The notes under the pieces: model-generated
The model's database searches: none
Seen by the model: only the letters and a program-made list of their open reading frames with translations
Told to the model about the DNA's origin: nothing
Program-made: the position numbers and the translations under genes
Source: Verrucomicrobiota bacterium
GTDB taxonomy: Bacteria; Verrucomicrobiota; Verrucomicrobiia; Chthoniobacterales; Terrimicrobiaceae
Direction of reading: 5' to 3'
NCBI GenBank assembly: GCA_017305195.1
Contig: JAFKMU010000045.1
Location: forward strand, 1 to 64,000
DNA: 64,000 nt
In this document: positions 38,580 through 45,293 of the stretch, piece after piece
How positions within the stretch are numbered: the stretch's first letter is position 1
Layout of the letters: each line of letters opens with the position of its first letter

Positions 38580-39650
38580 ATGCGCCACGAATCCCTCGCC
38601 TTTTTGAAAGAGCTTCTGACCACCCCATCCCCTTCCGGTTTTGAGACCAGAGGGCAGCGAGTGTGGGCTGACTACGTAGGGAAGTTCTCCAAAAAGGTGC
38701 ATAGCGACCCCTACGGCAACGTCTACGCCGGCCTCAATGAGTCCGGTACGCCGAAGATCGTGCTCGCGGGGCACTCCGACGAACTCGGCCTCATGGTGTC
38801 GTACATCGGCGAGGAGGGGTTTCTTTATTTCAAGGGCATAGGCGGCGTCGATCGCGCCATGCTCCGGGGCCGTCCGGTCATCGTCCATGGCCCGAATGGC
38901 CCGATTCCCGGTGTGACCGGCCACCTCGCGATCCACATGCAGGACCCGGATGATCGCAAGAAGGTGCCGGAGTTTCACGAGGTCTTCATCGACATCGGCG
39001 CCCGCAGCAAGGCCGAGGCCGAGGAACTCGTCCGCGTCGGCAATCCGATCACCATGGATCACGGAGTCGTCGAGCTCTTCGGCGAGCGCATCGCCGCCCG
39101 GGGTTGCGACAACCGCATCGGCACCTGGACCGCCGCCGAAGCCCTGCGCCTGCTGGCGGAGGACGAGAGTAAACTCCATGCCAATGTCATCGCCCTCTCG
39201 ACCATCCAGGAGGAAAACGGCCTCTATGGAGCGACGATGGCCGGCTATCGCATCCGCCCCGACATCGCCATCGTCATCGACGTGACCCACGCCACGGACA
39301 TCCCGATTTGCTCCAAGGCGAAGCACGGCGACGTCAAACTGGGCAAAGGCCCGGTCATCAGCATCGGCAGCTCGAACCACCCTGTGCTGGTGGAACGCAT
39401 GATCACGGTGGCGAAGAAGGAAAGCATCCCGGTCCAGTACGAGGCCAACCCCCGCTATACCGGCACCGATGCCGACGCCTTCTTCCTCCAGCGCGGGGGC
39501 ATCCCGTCCATCTCACTCGGCCTGCCCAATCGCTACATGCACTCTCCGGTCGAGGTCATCGACCTGGAAGACCTGGAGGCCATGGCTCAGCTCGTCGCCA
39601 GCTTCTGCGCCGACGTGCAGGCAGGCGAGACCTTCTCGGTGAAGATTTAG
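38580..39650 (+). CDS. M42 family aminopeptidase
   Basis: A 356-residue metallopeptidase of the M42 (glutamyl aminopeptidase/endoglucanase-like) family. Metal ligands are visible in AGHSDELG (His), RGCDNRIGTW (bridging Asp), QEENGLYG (Glu pair with catalytic Glu) and the late YMHSPVEVID (His). It acts on short peptides as a large cytosolic oligomer with two metal ions. The ATG at 38580 matches the family start (MRHESLAFLKELLTTPSPSG). Its TAG shares two bases with the stop codon of the convergent L,D-transpeptidase gene. Confidence 0.94.
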   Translation: MRHESLAFLKELLTTPSPSGFETRGQRVWADYVGKFSKKVHSDPYGNVYAGLNESGTPKIVLAGHSDELGLMVSYIGEEGFLYFKGIGGVDRAMLRGRPVIVHGPNGPIPGVTGHLAIHMQDPDDRKKVPEFHEVFIDIGARSKAEAEELVRVGNPITMDHGVVELFGERIAARGCDNRIGTWTAAEALRLLAEDESKLHANVIALSTIQEENGLYGATMAGYRIRPDIAIVIDVTHATDIPICSKAKHGDVKLGKGPVISIGSSNHPVLVERMITVAKKESIPVQYEANPRYTGTDADAFFLQRGGIPSISLGLPNRYMHSPVEVIDLEDLEAMAQLVASFCADVQAGETFSVKI

Positions 39651-40342
39651 CGAAGCTGCTGCAAACGGGTGCGGAGCCGGGCATACAGGTCCTGCACCCA
39701 GGGGCGCTCGTCCTCTGTCATCATCCGTTCATCGGGGACGATGAGGATTTCGACGTTTTCCAGCCCCACTCGTGAAACCAGCAGGAAAATTTCCTCCACG
39801 CCGGGATCACCCACGGCGAGGCAGCCGATGGACACCGCGCCGCCGTGCACCATGATGTCGCTGCCGAGATCCTGCGGCGGCACTCCCTCCGCCGCGCCAC
39901 GCGCGACGTCCTCGGCGTTGGGATAGTTGACCCGCAGGGAAAGATGGAACCGGCTGTTCGGGTTCAGCAGCTCGAAGCGATAAAATCCCTCCGGCACCTG
40001 CCGATCGCCCTCGCGGAGCTTCGGCCCCGGCCCGCCGCTGGCGGCGAGGACAGGCCAGGAGTGGACAAGTCGATACCTTCCGTCCTGCGGTACAAGAAGG
40101 TCGATGCGTCGTTCTTTCTTGTACGCAATGAAAACGAGTCGCTCGGGCGGATAGACCACGCCAGCCCGCTTGCAGAAAGCCCGCACGCGCGGCTCTACCG
40201 TCAGCTCGATGGCGCTCAACGCATCAGCCAGCGAGCGCGGCTTCGGCGGCAGGATCGCTGCGGACCGAGACTGGCGCAGGAGCCACCACGTTCCCAAAGA
40301 GAGCGCCCCAAGGAACGCCACCACCAGCAGCAGCCTTTTCAC
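39647..40342 (-). CDS. L,D-transpeptidase (YkuD domain), membrane-anchored
   Basis: A 231-residue protein starting at a GTG (40342) that overlaps the stop of the upstream reductase gene (GTGA). An N-terminal hydrophobic helix (residues 3-22) is followed by a YkuD domain: the catalytic motif HGGAVSIGC gives His166, Ser171 and Cys174 (HGxxxSxGC). The PRVRAFCKRAGVVYPP region before the domain has a second cysteine. Enzymes of this class form 3-3 peptidoglycan cross-links or attach lipoproteins. The start overlap ties its expression to the sphingolipid genes upstream. The long frame that extends further upstream is the shadow of cerR. Confidence 0.88.
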   Translation of the reverse strand: MKRLLLVVAFLGALSLGTWWLLRQSRSAAILPPKPRSLADALSAIELTVEPRVRAFCKRAGVVYPPERLVFIAYKKERRIDLLVPQDGRYRLVHSWPVLAASGGPGPKLREGDRQVPEGFYRFELLNPNSRFHLSLRVNYPNAEDVARGAAEGVPPQDLGSDIMVHGGAVSIGCLAVGDPGVEEIFLLVSRVGLENVEILIVPDERMMTEDERPWVQDLYARLRTRLQQLR

Positions 40343-41310
40343 AGCTGCCCGGTGCGCCGGTAAAAATCCGCCGTCTCCCGCATCGTCTCCGCCAGCCCAC
40401 GTTTCGCAGACCAGCCCGTCCATTGGGCAAAGCGACCGCCATCGACGACCCAGCGCGGAGGCCAGATTTCCCGGGCGCGATCCCTCGTGAGACTCGGCGT
40501 CTGGAGGCGGAGCGCAGGCACCGCATCGACGACGGCGGAAAGCAGGCGCACGGCTGGCTGGGGAACAGGCAATGTCAGGCCGGCCTTGCCCGGCGGCACG
40601 GCGGAGGCGATCAACTGCCAGTCCGTGATCGGCGCGGGAGCAGCCACATACAGGCTCTGATCCGGCAGCGACCCCGCCGCCAGCGCGAGAAAGATGGCCT
40701 CCACCAGATCCTGCACGGCGATGAAGCTGTAGCTCTTCGTGTGCCAGGCGGGTTTCAGGCGCACCCATCCCTCGCCCATCTTGAAAAGCGGCAGCGTCGC
40801 CTGGTCGCGCGGACCGAGAATCATCGGCGGACGCAGCATGACGATCGGACGATGAGGAAACCGCTCGCGGATCGCCCGCTCCATCGCAAGCTTCGACTCG
40901 CCATACCATGTGATGGGCGAATCGGCATCGTCCTCGCTGCGGGCGGCGCGGTCCTCCGGCGTCGGGCCTCCTGCGGATTGCGACGACAGGACCACGATCC
41001 GGCACGTCTCCGGCAGGGCCTCGATGACGCGCAGCGTCCAGTCGACATTGGTCTCAAAATATTCCTGCCGGTCGCGGGCAAAAAGCACTCCCGCCCCGAG
41101 AATGGCATGGTCGGGCGTGGCGCCTCCCCACGTCGCGGGATCAGCCCCGAGGGCAACGACGTTTTTCGCCGCGACTCCCTCGCCGTGCAACTGGCTCCGC
41201 AGCTTGGCCTCGGAGCGCACGGGGGCGAAAATCTTCCCATACCCCGGGAGCGCGCGCAGCAGGGCGTTGCGACCGACAAAGCCGGTGGCTCCCGTCAGCA
41301 GGAGATTCAT
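40339..41310 (-). CDS. cerR: NAD(P)-dependent epimerase-type reductase, probable ceramide reductase
   Basis: A 323-residue extended SDR with the nucleotide motif TGATGFVG (6-13), VVLSSQSAGG and Y-x3-K in WYGESK (Tyr136, Lys140). It is annotated in databases typically as NAD-dependent epimerase. Its position directly behind a bCerS-type acyltransferase and a serine palmitoyltransferase suggests the role of CerR of Caulobacter, the enzyme that reduces the 3-keto group of 3-oxoceramide. It overlaps the upstream gene (ATGA, 41307-41310) and the downstream L,D-transpeptidase (GTGA). The substrate assignment is inferred from context. Confidence 0.8.
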   Translation of the reverse strand: MNLLLTGATGFVGRNALLRALPGYGKIFAPVRSEAKLRSQLHGEGVAAKNVVALGADPATWGGATPDHAILGAGVLFARDRQEYFETNVDWTLRVIEALPETCRIVVLSSQSAGGPTPEDRAARSEDDADSPITWYGESKLAMERAIRERFPHRPIVMLRPPMILGPRDQATLPLFKMGEGWVRLKPAWHTKSYSFIAVQDLVEAIFLALAAGSLPDQSLYVAAPAPITDWQLIASAVPPGKAGLTLPVPQPAVRLLSAVVDAVPALRLQTPSLTRDRAREIWPPRWVVDGGRFAQWTGWSAKRGLAETMRETADFYRRTGQL

Positions 41311-42440
41311 CCGAGGGCTTTCTCAAAAATCCGCCACTTGCGATGCGGAATCCCCCCGAGCATGAGGGAGTTTTCGATGATCTCGGTGTTGTTTTCCTCG
41401 ATCCAGCCGAGCTCGGCATGCGTGTAGCGGGCCTTGGCGCAGGCAAACTGCTCGCGCAGCAGCCAGCCGTGCAGGCCGGTCTTGTCACGGAAGCGTGGCG
41501 AGATGCCGTAGACCACCTGGCGGCCCGAGCGTATCGGCCGGGTCTTCAGGAGCCAGAGGAAATGAAGAGGACGCAGCCAGCCGGGGGTCTTCTTGAGCTG
41601 GATAAGAAGCTCATTGACGTTGGGTAACGACAGGCCGACTCCGGCATTCTCTCCATCATGCTCGGCGATGAGAATCATCTCCGGATCGGCGATGGCCCGC
41701 AGATCGTCGGCGGCAAAGAGCAGGTCGTCCATCGAGATGGGGACGAAGCCCCAGTTGCGCTCAAGCGTGGAATTATAAACCTCCAGCACGATCTTGAGCT
41801 CCTCATCGAGCTCCTTGAGCCGGATGGGGCGGAGCTTGAGACGCGAACGCCGGGTGAGGCGGTCGACGATCTTGCTGAGTCGCGCAGGCACCTCGAGCTT
41901 GGCCAGCGGAAGATGAAACCCGAGCGACGCGCGCACGGAATCGTAACCGGAATCTCTCACCAGCGCCTCGTAGTAGGCGGGATTCCAGGTCAGGCCGATA
42001 AATGGCGCGACGTCGAAACCCTCGACCAGCAACCCGCACTCGTCGTTGATGCTCGGGTTGTACGGGCCGCGCACGGAATCGCAGCCCCGCTCGCGCAGGA
42101 CGGAATCGACTTTTTTGAAAAGCTCCGTCGCGGTAGAGAGATTATTCTCACACTCGAAGAACCCGAAGAATCCCGTGCGGTCTTTGTAATATTCGTTGTG
42201 CGAGCGATTAATGATCGCTGCGATACGCCCGACCAGCTTGCCGTCGCGACGCGCAATGAAGGGAATGATCTCGCCGTGGCGTTTGCAGAAGGCGGATTTT
42301 TCCGAGAGGTACTTGGCTATGCTGCCCGGAAAAGGCGGCACAAAAGCCGGGTCCCCTCCCTGGAGCAGTTCCGCGACATCTTCAAAAGTCTGCCGCTCCC
42401 TGCCCGTGCGACATGGGACGATCTCTATGCTCCCCGACAT
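41307..42440 (-). CDS. bcerS: YghO/bCerS-type acyltransferase, probable bacterial ceramide synthase
   Basis: A 377-residue protein of the GNAT-like YghO family: FVPPFPGSIAKYL, ARRDGKLVGRIAAIINR, HNEYYKDRTGFFGFFEC, then RGPYNPSINDECGLLVEGF and LTWNPAYYEALV. In Caulobacter a member of this family (bCerS) N-acylates the product of serine palmitoyltransferase; it is unrelated to eukaryotic ceramide synthases. It begins 18 bases after the SPT-like gene ends and overlaps cerR by four. The family match is strong by eye, the ceramide role is from the three-gene context. Confidence 0.85.
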   Translation of the reverse strand: MSGSIEIVPCRTGRERQTFEDVAELLQGGDPAFVPPFPGSIAKYLSEKSAFCKRHGEIIPFIARRDGKLVGRIAAIINRSHNEYYKDRTGFFGFFECENNLSTATELFKKVDSVLRERGCDSVRGPYNPSINDECGLLVEGFDVAPFIGLTWNPAYYEALVRDSGYDSVRASLGFHLPLAKLEVPARLSKIVDRLTRRSRLKLRPIRLKELDEELKIVLEVYNSTLERNWGFVPISMDDLLFAADDLRAIADPEMILIAEHDGENAGVGLSLPNVNELLIQLKKTPGWLRPLHFLWLLKTRPIRSGRQVVYGISPRFRDKTGLHGWLLREQFACAKARYTHAELGWIEENNTEIIENSLMLGGIPHRKWRIFEKALG

Positions 42441-42458
42441 GGACCTGGCGAAACGAGT

Positions 42459-43778
42459 CTATTTGGTGGCCTGATGATATCCGTTCTGCCCCTCGACGGC
42501 TGCCGTCGAGCCGTTCTCTGAAGCGTCGAGACGGAAATCGAAAACGTTGCGACGGCGACCGGGTTCCACATAGGCCGGGTCGTCGAAGGTGCCAAGTTCC
42601 TTGGCTAGCTTCTCGAAGATCTCAAGCACGTGGTCCAGGTCCTCGTCCGTATGCGTCGCCATGTAGCTCGTGCGCACGATGGCCTCGCCATAGCGCACAG
42701 CCGGGTAAATCGCCGGAGTGGCAAAGACGCCTTCCTCGAAGAGGCGCTGCGTGAACATGAACGCCTTGGCCTCGCTGCCGATGAGGATCGGTACGATGGG
42801 CGTCTGCGTGGTGCCAATCTTGAAGCCGATGCGCTTGAAGCCCTCGTGCATCTTGTGCGTATTGCGCCAGAGCTGCTCCATGCGCTCGGGCTCCTGCTGC
42901 ATGATCTCAAGCGCCTTGAGCACGCCTCCTGCGACGGCGGGAGCGAGCGAGGCCGTAAAGATCAGGCACCGGGCGCGATGCTTGAGATATTCAATCATCT
43001 GGCGGTCGCCCGCGATGAAACCGCCCATGGAACCGAGCGATTTCGAAAATGTTCCCATGACGATGTCGACATCGTCGTTGAGGCCGAAATGATGCACCAC
43101 GCCGCGGCCCTTCGGACCGAGCACGCCGAGCGAATGGGCCTCGTCGACATAGACGCGGGCGCCATAGCTCTTGGCCACCTCGAGCTGGGGTGGCAGGTCG
43201 GCGATGTCGCCCGACATGCTGAAGACGCCGTCCATCACGACGAGCTTGCCCGCCTCGGGAGCCTGGCGCTTCAGGCGATTGGCCAGCGACGATGCAGAGT
43301 TGTGCCGATACGGAACCAGCTTGGCCGGGGCGAACTGACAGCCGTCGATGATGCTGGCGTGATTCTCGCGGTCGCACAGAATCACGTCACCCTCCTCGGT
43401 CAGTGACGCCAGAGCCCCCTGGTTGGCAAAAAACCCGGTCGAGAAAAGAAGGACGGCCTCGCGCTGGAGGAAATCGGCCAGCGCCTCTTCCAATTGGGAA
43501 TGCAGGCGGATCGTACCGTTCAACAGCCTGGACCCGGTGCAGCCCGCACCGTAGGCGCGGGTGGCTTCACAGGCCGCCTCGATCACGCGCTCATCCTGAG
43601 CCAGGCCGAGGTAGTTGTTCGACCCGATCATGATCTTGCGCTCGCCGTCGCACATCACGTAATTGCCGTGCGTCTCGTCAATCTGGCGAAAGTACGGATA
43701 GAAGCCCTGTGCTTTCGCGTCGGCGCTATCCCTGTAGTCCCGGCATTTCTGAAATAAATCTCGCGCCAACGTACGCAT
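42459..43778 (-). CDS. spt: Serine palmitoyltransferase-like PLP enzyme
   Basis: A 439-residue alpha-oxoamine synthase. PLP site: His140 (RENHASIID), Asp212 and His215 (VDEAHSLG), Lys246 in GTFSKSLGSMGGF. The N-terminus (FYPYFRQIDETHGNYV, then GSNNYLGLA) and the end of the core resemble bacterial SPTs (Sphingomonas, Bacteroides, Caulobacter) more than KBL or BioF. It would condense L-serine with an acyl thioester to 3-ketosphinganine in the cytoplasm. The C-terminal tail (NVFDFRLDASENGSTAAV) is an extension of about 25 residues. First gene of the operon spt-bcerS-cerR-ldt. Confidence 0.88.
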   Translation of the reverse strand: MRTLARDLFQKCRDYRDSADAKAQGFYPYFRQIDETHGNYVMCDGERKIMIGSNNYLGLAQDERVIEAACEATRAYGAGCTGSRLLNGTIRLHSQLEEALADFLQREAVLLFSTGFFANQGALASLTEEGDVILCDRENHASIIDGCQFAPAKLVPYRHNSASSLANRLKRQAPEAGKLVVMDGVFSMSGDIADLPPQLEVAKSYGARVYVDEAHSLGVLGPKGRGVVHHFGLNDDVDIVMGTFSKSLGSMGGFIAGDRQMIEYLKHRARCLIFTASLAPAVAGGVLKALEIMQQEPERMEQLWRNTHKMHEGFKRIGFKIGTTQTPIVPILIGSEAKAFMFTQRLFEEGVFATPAIYPAVRYGEAIVRTSYMATHTDEDLDHVLEIFEKLAKELGTFDDPAYVEPGRRRNVFDFRLDASENGSTAAVEGQNGYHQATK

Positions 43779-43807
43779 GAAAAGGATTAGATAAAGTTAC
43801 AGGATCA

Positions 43808-43838
43808 GGCTCTTTGTAAATCTTTTTCCATAAGAGCC
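43808..43838 (-). promoter_or_regulatory. Inverted repeat ahead of the sphingolipid operon
   Basis: GGCTCTT and AAGAGCC with a 17-base AT-rich loop, 30 bases before the spt start. Read on the minus strand the loop includes ATGGAAAAAGATTTACAAAGAGCCTGA's beginning, an 8-codon ORF, possibly by chance. It may be an operator or leader hairpin; low support. Confidence 0.25.
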
Positions 43839-43919
43839 GAAAAGGAACGCCGCGGGGGAAAAGGCTTCTCAGCGCCTATGGGAGAGGTACTTACAGCTTT
43901 CATAACGACTCTTCCAGCT

Positions 43920-44387
43920 TTATCGCACAGGAACCTGAAGAGGGCTCGGGTTGGCCAGCATGATCGAAATGGCCACAAAATAGAGAGTCAGCCCCCCAAG
44001 GAGGAGCCATCCCCCCACGGCCACGGCGCGGGTCTTGGCATTGCGCGTCGCCACCATGCGCCCGAGCGAGGCCACTGCATCGTCGGAGAGATGCGCGGTC
44101 AGCCAGTCGATCAACATGACGCGCCAGACCACCCAGCCCGCTCCCAGCAACGCCACGGCCAACCCGGCGATGACAAAAATCTGCGCTGCCACATTTGTTC
44201 CTGCAATCAAACGACCGGAGAATCCTGTGACAGTCACGATGATGCTCGCCATGCCCACCACAGACTGGGCGCGCCCATACATGACGTCGAACTGCTTTTG
44301 AATGATATCAAAAGCCATGCGGGTGTCATTGTCCGCCAGCTTGAGGATGGCGGCAGCTTCTTCGGCGGGTGACATGAGTTTCCCCAT
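43920..44387 (-). CDS. Membrane protein with about three helices, unknown
   Basis: About 155 residues from the ATG at 44387 (MGKLMSPAEEAAAILKLADND); an ATG four codons later is equally possible. Soluble N-terminal helix (to residue about 30, DTRMAFDIIQKQFDVMYGRAQ), then three hydrophobic stretches (SVVGMASIIVTVTGFSG, AAQIFVIAGLAVALLGAGWV, AVGGWLLLGGLTLYFVAISI). Basic C-terminus. The arrangement resembles small membrane-effector proteins of defence systems, but no cyclase is adjacent, and I do not assign a family. Confidence 0.7.
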   Translation of the reverse strand: MGKLMSPAEEAAAILKLADNDTRMAFDIIQKQFDVMYGRAQSVVGMASIIVTVTGFSGRLIAGTNVAAQIFVIAGLAVALLGAGWVVWRVMLIDWLTAHLSDDAVASLGRMVATRNAKTRAVAVGGWLLLGGLTLYFVAISIMLANPSPLQVPVR

Positions 44388-44444
44388 ATAACCCGCCGCA
44401 ATTCCGGGGCCAAGCCCCAACTTCTCGCCCGTCGGATTTGCGGG

Positions 44445-45239
44445 CTAAAGAATCGAGCGCAGCAAGCCGCCTTCCGCCCGCACAGCCGCGCCGTTCGTGG
44501 CCGCTGCCAGAGGGCTTGCCAGATAGGCGACCGTGGTCGCCACTTCGTGCACGGTGGCAAAACGCTGGATGAGCGAACTCGGCCGCACCGTGGCGAAGAA
44601 ATCCTTCTCCACCTCGGCCGTTGTCTTGCCGTCCTTCTCCGCCATGTCGGCGATGAATTTCTCCACGCCCTCCGACCGTGTGGGGCCGGGCAGCACGGAA
44701 TTGACCGTCACTCCAGTGCCAATGGTCGTCTCAGCGAGACCACGGGCGAGCGCGATCTGCATCGTCTTGGTCACGCCGTAGTGAATCATCTCCACGGGAA
44801 TGTTCACCCCGGACTCGCTGGAAAGAAAGAGGATGCGGCCCCAGTTCGCCTTCTTCATCGCAGGCAGATAGTGACGGCAAAGACGGACGCCACTCAGGAA
44901 ATTCGTCTCGATGATCGAGAGCCACTCCGCGTCCGTAAGATCCTCGAAATTCTTCGGCCCGTAGATGCCGAGATTGTTGACCAGCACGTCGACTGTCGGG
45001 AATCGCTTGATCGTTTCCTCCACGGCTCCCGCCGTCGCCAGATCTGCCACGAGGGATTCCACGCGAGCCTGCGGGTATTTCTTCAGGATCGAGGCCGTCG
45101 CCGCAGCGACGCGCTCCTCAGACCGGCCATTGACAATCACCCGGGCGCCCTCGGCGGCAAACACCTCGGCAATCGCGAATCCAATACCCGCCGTCGACCC
45201 CGTCACCAGCACCAGCTTGTCTTGAAGCAGCAAATCCAT
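44445..45239 (-). CDS. Short-chain dehydrogenase/reductase
   Basis: A 264-residue classical SDR. VTGSTAGIGFAIAEVF holds TGxxxGIG; NNLGIYG, the catalytic serine in FLSSESGV and Y-x3-K in HYGVTKTM are present. The ATG at 45239 (MDLLLQDKLVLVTG) is preferred over one five codons upstream. The substrate is unknown. It is separated from the sphingolipid operon by one gene and is not clearly part of it, although a ketone reductase would be biochemically compatible. Confidence 0.88.
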   Translation of the reverse strand: MDLLLQDKLVLVTGSTAGIGFAIAEVFAAEGARVIVNGRSEERVAAATASILKKYPQARVESLVADLATAGAVEETIKRFPTVDVLVNNLGIYGPKNFEDLTDAEWLSIIETNFLSGVRLCRHYLPAMKKANWGRILFLSSESGVNIPVEMIHYGVTKTMQIALARGLAETTIGTGVTVNSVLPGPTRSEGVEKFIADMAEKDGKTTAEVEKDFFATVRPSSLIQRFATVHEVATTVAYLASPLAAATNGAAVRAEGGLLRSIL

Positions 45240-45293
45240 GCCGGAACGTCTCACCGGTTCCTGCCGGTGCCAAATGAAAATCTGTGACGATTT

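Follow-up and report, generated by a model that had tools for sequence, protein, structure and literature searches.

The locus described here raises the question of whether four tightly packed minus-strand genes of a Verrucomicrobiota bacterium (GenBank assembly GCA_017305195.1; order Chthoniobacterales, family Terrimicrobiaceae) encode a bacterial ceramide pathway, and what a YkuD-superfamily gene is doing at the end of that set. The window, meaning the whole 64,000-nucleotide stretch analysed, covers positions 1-64000 of contig C22 (JAFKMU010000045.1) in a source genome of 5.11 Mb, 75 contigs and 94.7% completeness. In transcriptional order the genes encode a serine palmitoyltransferase (Spt), an acyltransferase of the bCerS/YghO family, a CerR-like short-chain dehydrogenase/reductase (SDR) of the epimerase type and a YkuD-superfamily protein, referred to below as gene 4. 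They are read, with considerable confidence, as a ceramide operon of Chthoniobacterales carrying a translationally coupled DpaA/YafK-type hydrolase, and the ceramide gene set itself is almost certainly real. The layout given in an initial annotation of this DNA, comprising the four genes with their coordinates, spacing and ATGA/GTGA overlaps and the pyridoxal phosphate (PLP) lysine Lys246, is confirmed throughout, with 18 bases separating the spt stop from the bcerS start (Table 1). Two congeners hold the identical four-gene set in the same order, with proteins 80–98% identical and ratios of nonsynonymous to synonymous substitution (dN/dS) of 0.02–0.18 across the four genes; the retained order and low dN/dS place the arrangement beyond chance. 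A promoter scan of 39300-44200 picked up three promoter-like matches, all on the plus strand and none on the minus.

Identification of gene 1 is carried by PDB ranking, phylogeny and an active-site motif. Against sequences in the PDB, Sphingobacterium SPT (401.5 bits) ranks ahead of KBL (248), cysteate acyltransferase (240) and BioF (206), and the best NCBIfam model is that of the Bacteroidota SPT (SerpalmtaseCFB, 498 bits; 391 for the BioF model). In a 40-row tree the protein falls within a 29-row SPT clade (SH-aLRT 95) together with the Bacteroides, Parabacteroides, Sphingomonas and Roseomonas enzymes, and five KBL/BioF rows lie across a branch (89) from this clade; this tree and a second one of 39 rows were built by a quick method from hand-picked rows, the Priestia locus L084 being excluded from both. 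Lys246 lies in GTFSKS, and GTFSK is present in 13/13 Spt rows and 0/5 KBL/BioF rows, with the following Ser replaced by Cys in the Streptomyces row. The BioF of the genome is a separate gene on contig C41, scoring 438 bits and above its cut-off. Grouping of the PLP enzyme with KBL/BioF, the outcome that the initial annotation had named as fatal to its ceramide proposal, is thus contradicted by its place in the SPT clade; assignment to KBL or BioF is ruled out by PDB ranking, tree and motif, and assignment to cysteate acyltransferase by the PDB ranking alone.

Gene 2 returned no match in Pfam, NCBIfam or PDB sequence searches. It aligns end to end with acyltransferases of sphingolipid-type loci from Rubrobacter, Klebsiella michiganensis, Roseomonas, Streptomyces, Diaphorobacter and Sphingomonas, and over its full length with E. 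coli YghO (27% identity); identities to the Sphingomonas, Roseomonas, Diaphorobacter, Klebsiella and YghO rows are 24–30%, and 22 columns are invariant over 15 rows. An AlphaFold2 model (pLDDT 91.8, 52 input sequences) best matches tandem-GNAT enzymes (7q3a, Z 23.8, root-mean-square deviation 3.4 over 305 residues), followed by N-myristoyltransferases at Z about 16.5; the predicted tandem-GNAT/N-myristoyltransferase-like fold suits an N-acyltransferase and proves no function. A position outside the bCerS clade, likewise named in advance as damaging, did not emerge as far as this can be tested, gene 2 aligning with sphingolipid-locus homologues and YghO. Gene 3 matches PF01370 (E 3.6e-14), carries the TGxxGFxG and YxxxK (Y136, K140) motifs common in alignment to the SDRs of other Spt loci, and begins straight at the nucleotide-binding motif. 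The proposal that Spt, a YghO-family acyltransferase and an epimerase-type SDR form a ceramide operon is therefore supported by PDB ranking, alignment, tree and motif. The periplasmic location of Caulobacter CerR, against a cytoplasmic one for Spt and bCerS, speaks for acylation preceding reduction (PMC11087976), although another group has proposed a eukaryote-like order (PMC11324152); the order of N-acylation and ketone reduction is thus disputed.

The ceramide part of the locus is of a known kind, since the trio is widespread and Spt-like genes of Verrucomicrobiota have already been published. A full Spt orthologue (at least 63% identity) occurs in 25/57 genomes of the order, with a fragment in one more. 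Of these 25 Chthoniobacterales genomes (the window's included), 19 have the trio side by side, five have Spt and bCerS alone and one has Spt alone. CerR orthologues were found in 23/26 genomes of the family and in 17/17 good ones; in genera g2 and g199, most genomes have neither Spt nor bCerS within 1.5 kb of CerR. Relatives of gene 2 at E 0.001 were detected in 45/387 genomes of the phylum, many of them weak. A scan of named genomes yielded at least 592 pattern matches, 581 of them confirmed as relatives, and among 98 bCerS loci (the best 80 of these named contigs and a further 18, counted without de-duplication) Spt lies in the cluster at 74 and all three genes at 48, across many phyla.

Ding et al. 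reported Spt-like genes in 22 Verrucomicrobiota metagenome-assembled genomes (MAGs) from the Black Sea, with bCerS and CerR often near Spt-like genes across phyla (PMC11334938, the sole directly relevant paper in a literature search on Verrucomicrobiota sphingolipids). Those clusters resemble the window in gene set, frequent clustering and phylum, whereas the available portion of that report names no fourth gene and gives 'cell wall remodeling' merely as a function enriched across producers. By homology class, and compared through the literature, Caulobacter crescentus has the same three kinds of enzyme (Spt, bCerS/CC_1154 and CerR/CC_1164), spread over several operons and also needing CC_1163 and CC_1165, of acyl carrier protein (ACP) and acyl-CoA synthetase type (PMC11087976, PMC11324152); in the window, by contrast, the three ceramide genes are contiguous with no gene of these types between them. 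The same order of Spt, acyltransferase and SDR is found on plasmids of Rubrobacter radiotolerans (L042; Spt 49% identical), where an LTA-synthase-family protein follows, and Streptomyces sp. NBC_01001 (L045; Spt 41% identical), where a condensation-domain protein follows. The conjugative plasmid NZ_CP106839.1 of K. michiganensis (L043) holds an apparently full sphingolipid set, with alpha-oxoamine synthase, ACP, SDR, fatty acyl-AMP ligase and a bCerS-like protein. Four loci titled Bdellovibrionales, Bdellovibrio or Deltaproteobacteria (L107-L110) share the window's trio order, with Spt 67–68%, bCerS 41–46% and CerR 43–46% identical; two of them were placed on the trees and group with Chthoniobacterales for both Spt and bCerS (100 each), and the operon may have moved as a unit from one phylum to another.

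The L,D-transpeptidase label initially given to gene 4 does not hold, the active-site Arg being replaced by Ala as in DpaA/YafK and LD-carboxypeptidases (PMC8263019, PMC8938487), and on this ground the candidate was rejected. The active site (HGG..SIGC) belongs to the YkuD superfamily, the NCBIfam name is LdtF_DpaA_YafK (NF040599), and a PDB search retrieved structure 8ikr (E 4.9e-22), which is E. coli DpaA (PMC13400389). Gene 4 shares with E. coli DpaA (LdtF/YafK) the residues K83, H135, C143 and A145 at 30% overall identity, and differs from it in having Phe for Tyr109. At Cys+2, where LD-transpeptidases carry Arg and most DpaA-like and LD-carboxypeptidase enzymes lack it (PMC8263019, PMC8938487), gene 4 has Ala, as do the seven relatives aligned with it, among them E. 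coli DpaA; DpaA, which is no transpeptidase, turns essential for E. coli once lipopolysaccharide (LPS) export fails (PMC8263019). Because Arg is absent from Cys+2, the Lys, His and Cys of DpaA are kept and DpaA itself does not act as a transpeptidase, gene 4 is best read from its sequence as a DpaA/YafK-type hydrolase.

Several observations weigh against the overall reading. Spt falls below all NCBIfam SPT equivalog cut-offs (NF047600, 498 vs 640 bits; NF047599, 405 vs 500; NF047603, 337 vs 670), as does the Rubrobacter enzyme that lies beside bCerS and an SDR. The genome carries two orphan bCerS paralogues with no Spt nearby (contigs C12 and C53, 49–50% identity; L039:7123-8253 and L040:8055-9185), 24 of the 98 bCerS loci have no Spt in the cluster, and the family member YghO occurs in E. 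coli without Spt, K-12 strains of which are not known to make sphingolipids. No dedicated ACP or acyl-CoA synthetase, as in the rhodobacterial Spt system, occurs among the four contiguous genes, a statement that covers these genes and not the rest of the genome, which was not searched. Gene 4 scores 90.1 bits against an NF040599 equivalog cut-off of 365, and is therefore not filed as a DpaA equivalog; its AlphaFold2 model is poor (mean pLDDT 53.8) and was not used. The genome gave no match to Lpp, a further difference from E. coli, so any protein tether here would be other than Lpp. Lastly, a dpaA-like gene follows cerR in just 3/19 genomes of the order with cerR in the cluster, plus one MAG of the family. 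As to the orphan paralogues, one lies near ArsR and ArsA-ATPase genes and the other near an integrase-like open reading frame (ORF), and in the tree both group with an operon bCerS of another family (G313).

This restricted occurrence bears directly on the claim that gene 4 is coupled to the operon, of which the GTGA overlap stands as genuine and the reach is limited to four of the genomes examined: the window, both congeners (gene 4 being present in 3/3 genomes of the window's genus) and L090, a MAG of the family (G433, genus g200) whose DpaA-like protein is 50% identical to gene 4. These represent two genera of one family, and the coupling is accordingly regarded as real but restricted to a lineage. 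In this MAG two bCerS genes stand in tandem between spt and cerR (L090:6665-8963), with 57% and 69% identity to the window copy. About an even chance is given to the view that gene 4 is a bystander, kept beside the ceramide genes by accident and functionally unconnected with them. It would account for the 16 of 19 order genomes with clustered cerR in which no gene-4 homologue comes next (in two of these the sequence runs out no more than 100 bases past cerR), for G411, which shares its genus with the L090 genome but has an alpha/beta hydrolase after cerR and its gene-4 homologue on another contig, and for the faster evolution of gene 4 relative to its neighbours (dN/dS 0.16–0.27, against 0.02–0.06 for spt). 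The same dN/dS values indicate purifying selection, however, and the GTGA overlap persists in two genera even where identity drops to 50%; an unrelated family of peptidoglycan peptidases, VanY, moreover occupies the same slot in L107-L110 (Pfam matches in three, the fourth being 93% identical). A general ceramide–DpaA partnership was rejected as a rule, most order genomes with ceramide genes lacking gene 4 there. The broader idea that the position after cerR is an envelope-release slot, in which sphingolipid synthesis is co-expressed with a peptidoglycan cutter (DpaA-like in the window and L090, VanY-like in the Bdellovibrionales-like loci) so that new outer-membrane lipid goes in while the membrane–wall link loosens, would be a counterpart of the known genetic tie between DpaA and LPS synthesis and export in E. 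coli, and is considered unlikely. By eye, the VanY-family proteins have no obvious signal peptide; in G397 the second gene past bCerS encodes an M23 peptidase; and Pfam matches among 45 downstream proteins, some of which may be spurious ORFs and of which gene 4 itself falls below threshold, were VanY (4), PAP2 (4), HD (3), YkuD (2), purA (2) and Iso_dh (2). The chance of two such peptidoglycan-enzyme lineages is about 0.003 to 0.2, depending on the assumed lineage number and base rate, for an idea formed post hoc, so the pattern is suggestive, not significant, and no enrichment is claimed. A literature search on sphingolipid genes and peptidoglycan enzymes found no title or abstract describing such an operon.

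Two further alternatives concern what the enzymes do. A true L,D-transpeptidase activity of gene 4 would be in keeping with its superfamily and HGG..SIGC motif, and its close relative in L090 passes PF03734; it is nevertheless very unlikely, with Ala for Arg at Cys+2, the equivalent of DpaA Lys83 kept, PF03734 unmatched by gene 4 itself at E 0.001 and 13 other YkuD genes in the genome (which also encodes LpxC). Alternatively, if Spt used alanine, glycine or another amino acid, the operon might yield, in place of serine-based dihydroceramide, a long-chain ketone bearing an N-acyl group or a ceramide of the 1-deoxy type or built on a different amino acid. In favour of such a product, position 81 of Spt is Thr rather than the Ala of the Bacteroides and Parabacteroides enzymes, Ala79 of Sphingobacterium SPT lies near the substrate side chain (PMC10196870), and waters with Spt-like genes yielded 1-deoxysphingolipids (PMC11334938). 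Thr is likewise found at this position in the Roseomonas, Klebsiella and Rubrobacter rows, however, and Asn54, Ser83, His140, Asp212, His215 and Lys246 correspond to residues described in the Sphingobacterium enzyme with bound serine, though most are common to KBL/BioF; this alternative is held to be decidedly unlikely.

Under the preferred reading of a ceramide operon with a coupled hydrolase, Spt would form 3-ketosphinganine by condensing L-serine with a fatty-acyl thioester, the long-chain base would be N-acylated by the bCerS-like tandem-GNAT protein, and the CerR-like SDR would reduce the ketone to give dihydroceramide bound for the outer membrane. Gene 4, translated by coupling from cerR, would be a membrane-anchored periplasmic hydrolase whose most likely target is an amide bond at meso-diaminopimelate, cleaved in protein-tether release or stem-peptide trimming, and co-expression would match the supply of outer-membrane lipid to loosening of the membrane–wall link. 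The locus adds a well-supported ceramide operon for an order of Verrucomicrobiota, in a gene set compact enough for bacterial ceramide synthesis to be testable in a single construct. What it adds beyond that is the DpaA-type hydrolase coupled to the last ceramide gene, which offers a cheap and concrete test of whether sphingolipid supply and outer membrane–peptidoglycan attachment are coordinated; a transpeptidase label would point experimenters to the wrong assay.

Table 1. Features of the ceramide locus and its flanks, in window coordinates.
Feature	Position	Strand	Details
spt	42459..43778	-	ATG start, 439 aa; PLP Lys246 codon 43043-43041
bcerS-like	41307..42440	-	ATG start, 377 aa; YghO-family N-acyltransferase, predicted tandem-GNAT fold
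cerR-like	40339..41310	-	ATG start, 323 aa; epimerase-type SDR
dpaA-like (gene 4)	39647..40342	-	GTG start, 231 aa; putative membrane-anchored YkuD-superfamily hydrolase, YafK/DpaA type
ATGA overlap	41307..41310	-	cerR start on bcerS stop
GTGA overlap	40339..40342	-	dpaA-like start on cerR stop
Catalytic Cys codon of dpaA-like protein	39821..39823	-	SIGCLA; Ala at Cys+2
M42 peptidase gene	38580-39650	+	convergent with end of dpaA-like gene
Membrane-like ORF	43920-44420	-	166 aa; no Pfam match
Classical SDR gene	44445-45254	-	

Upstream of spt lie the membrane-like ORF and the classical SDR gene listed last in Table 1. In Mucilaginibacter segetis, the gene after spt-bcerS-cerR (L152:10195-11517) resembles myo-inositol-1-phosphate synthase, a similarity that would fit inositol sphingolipids.

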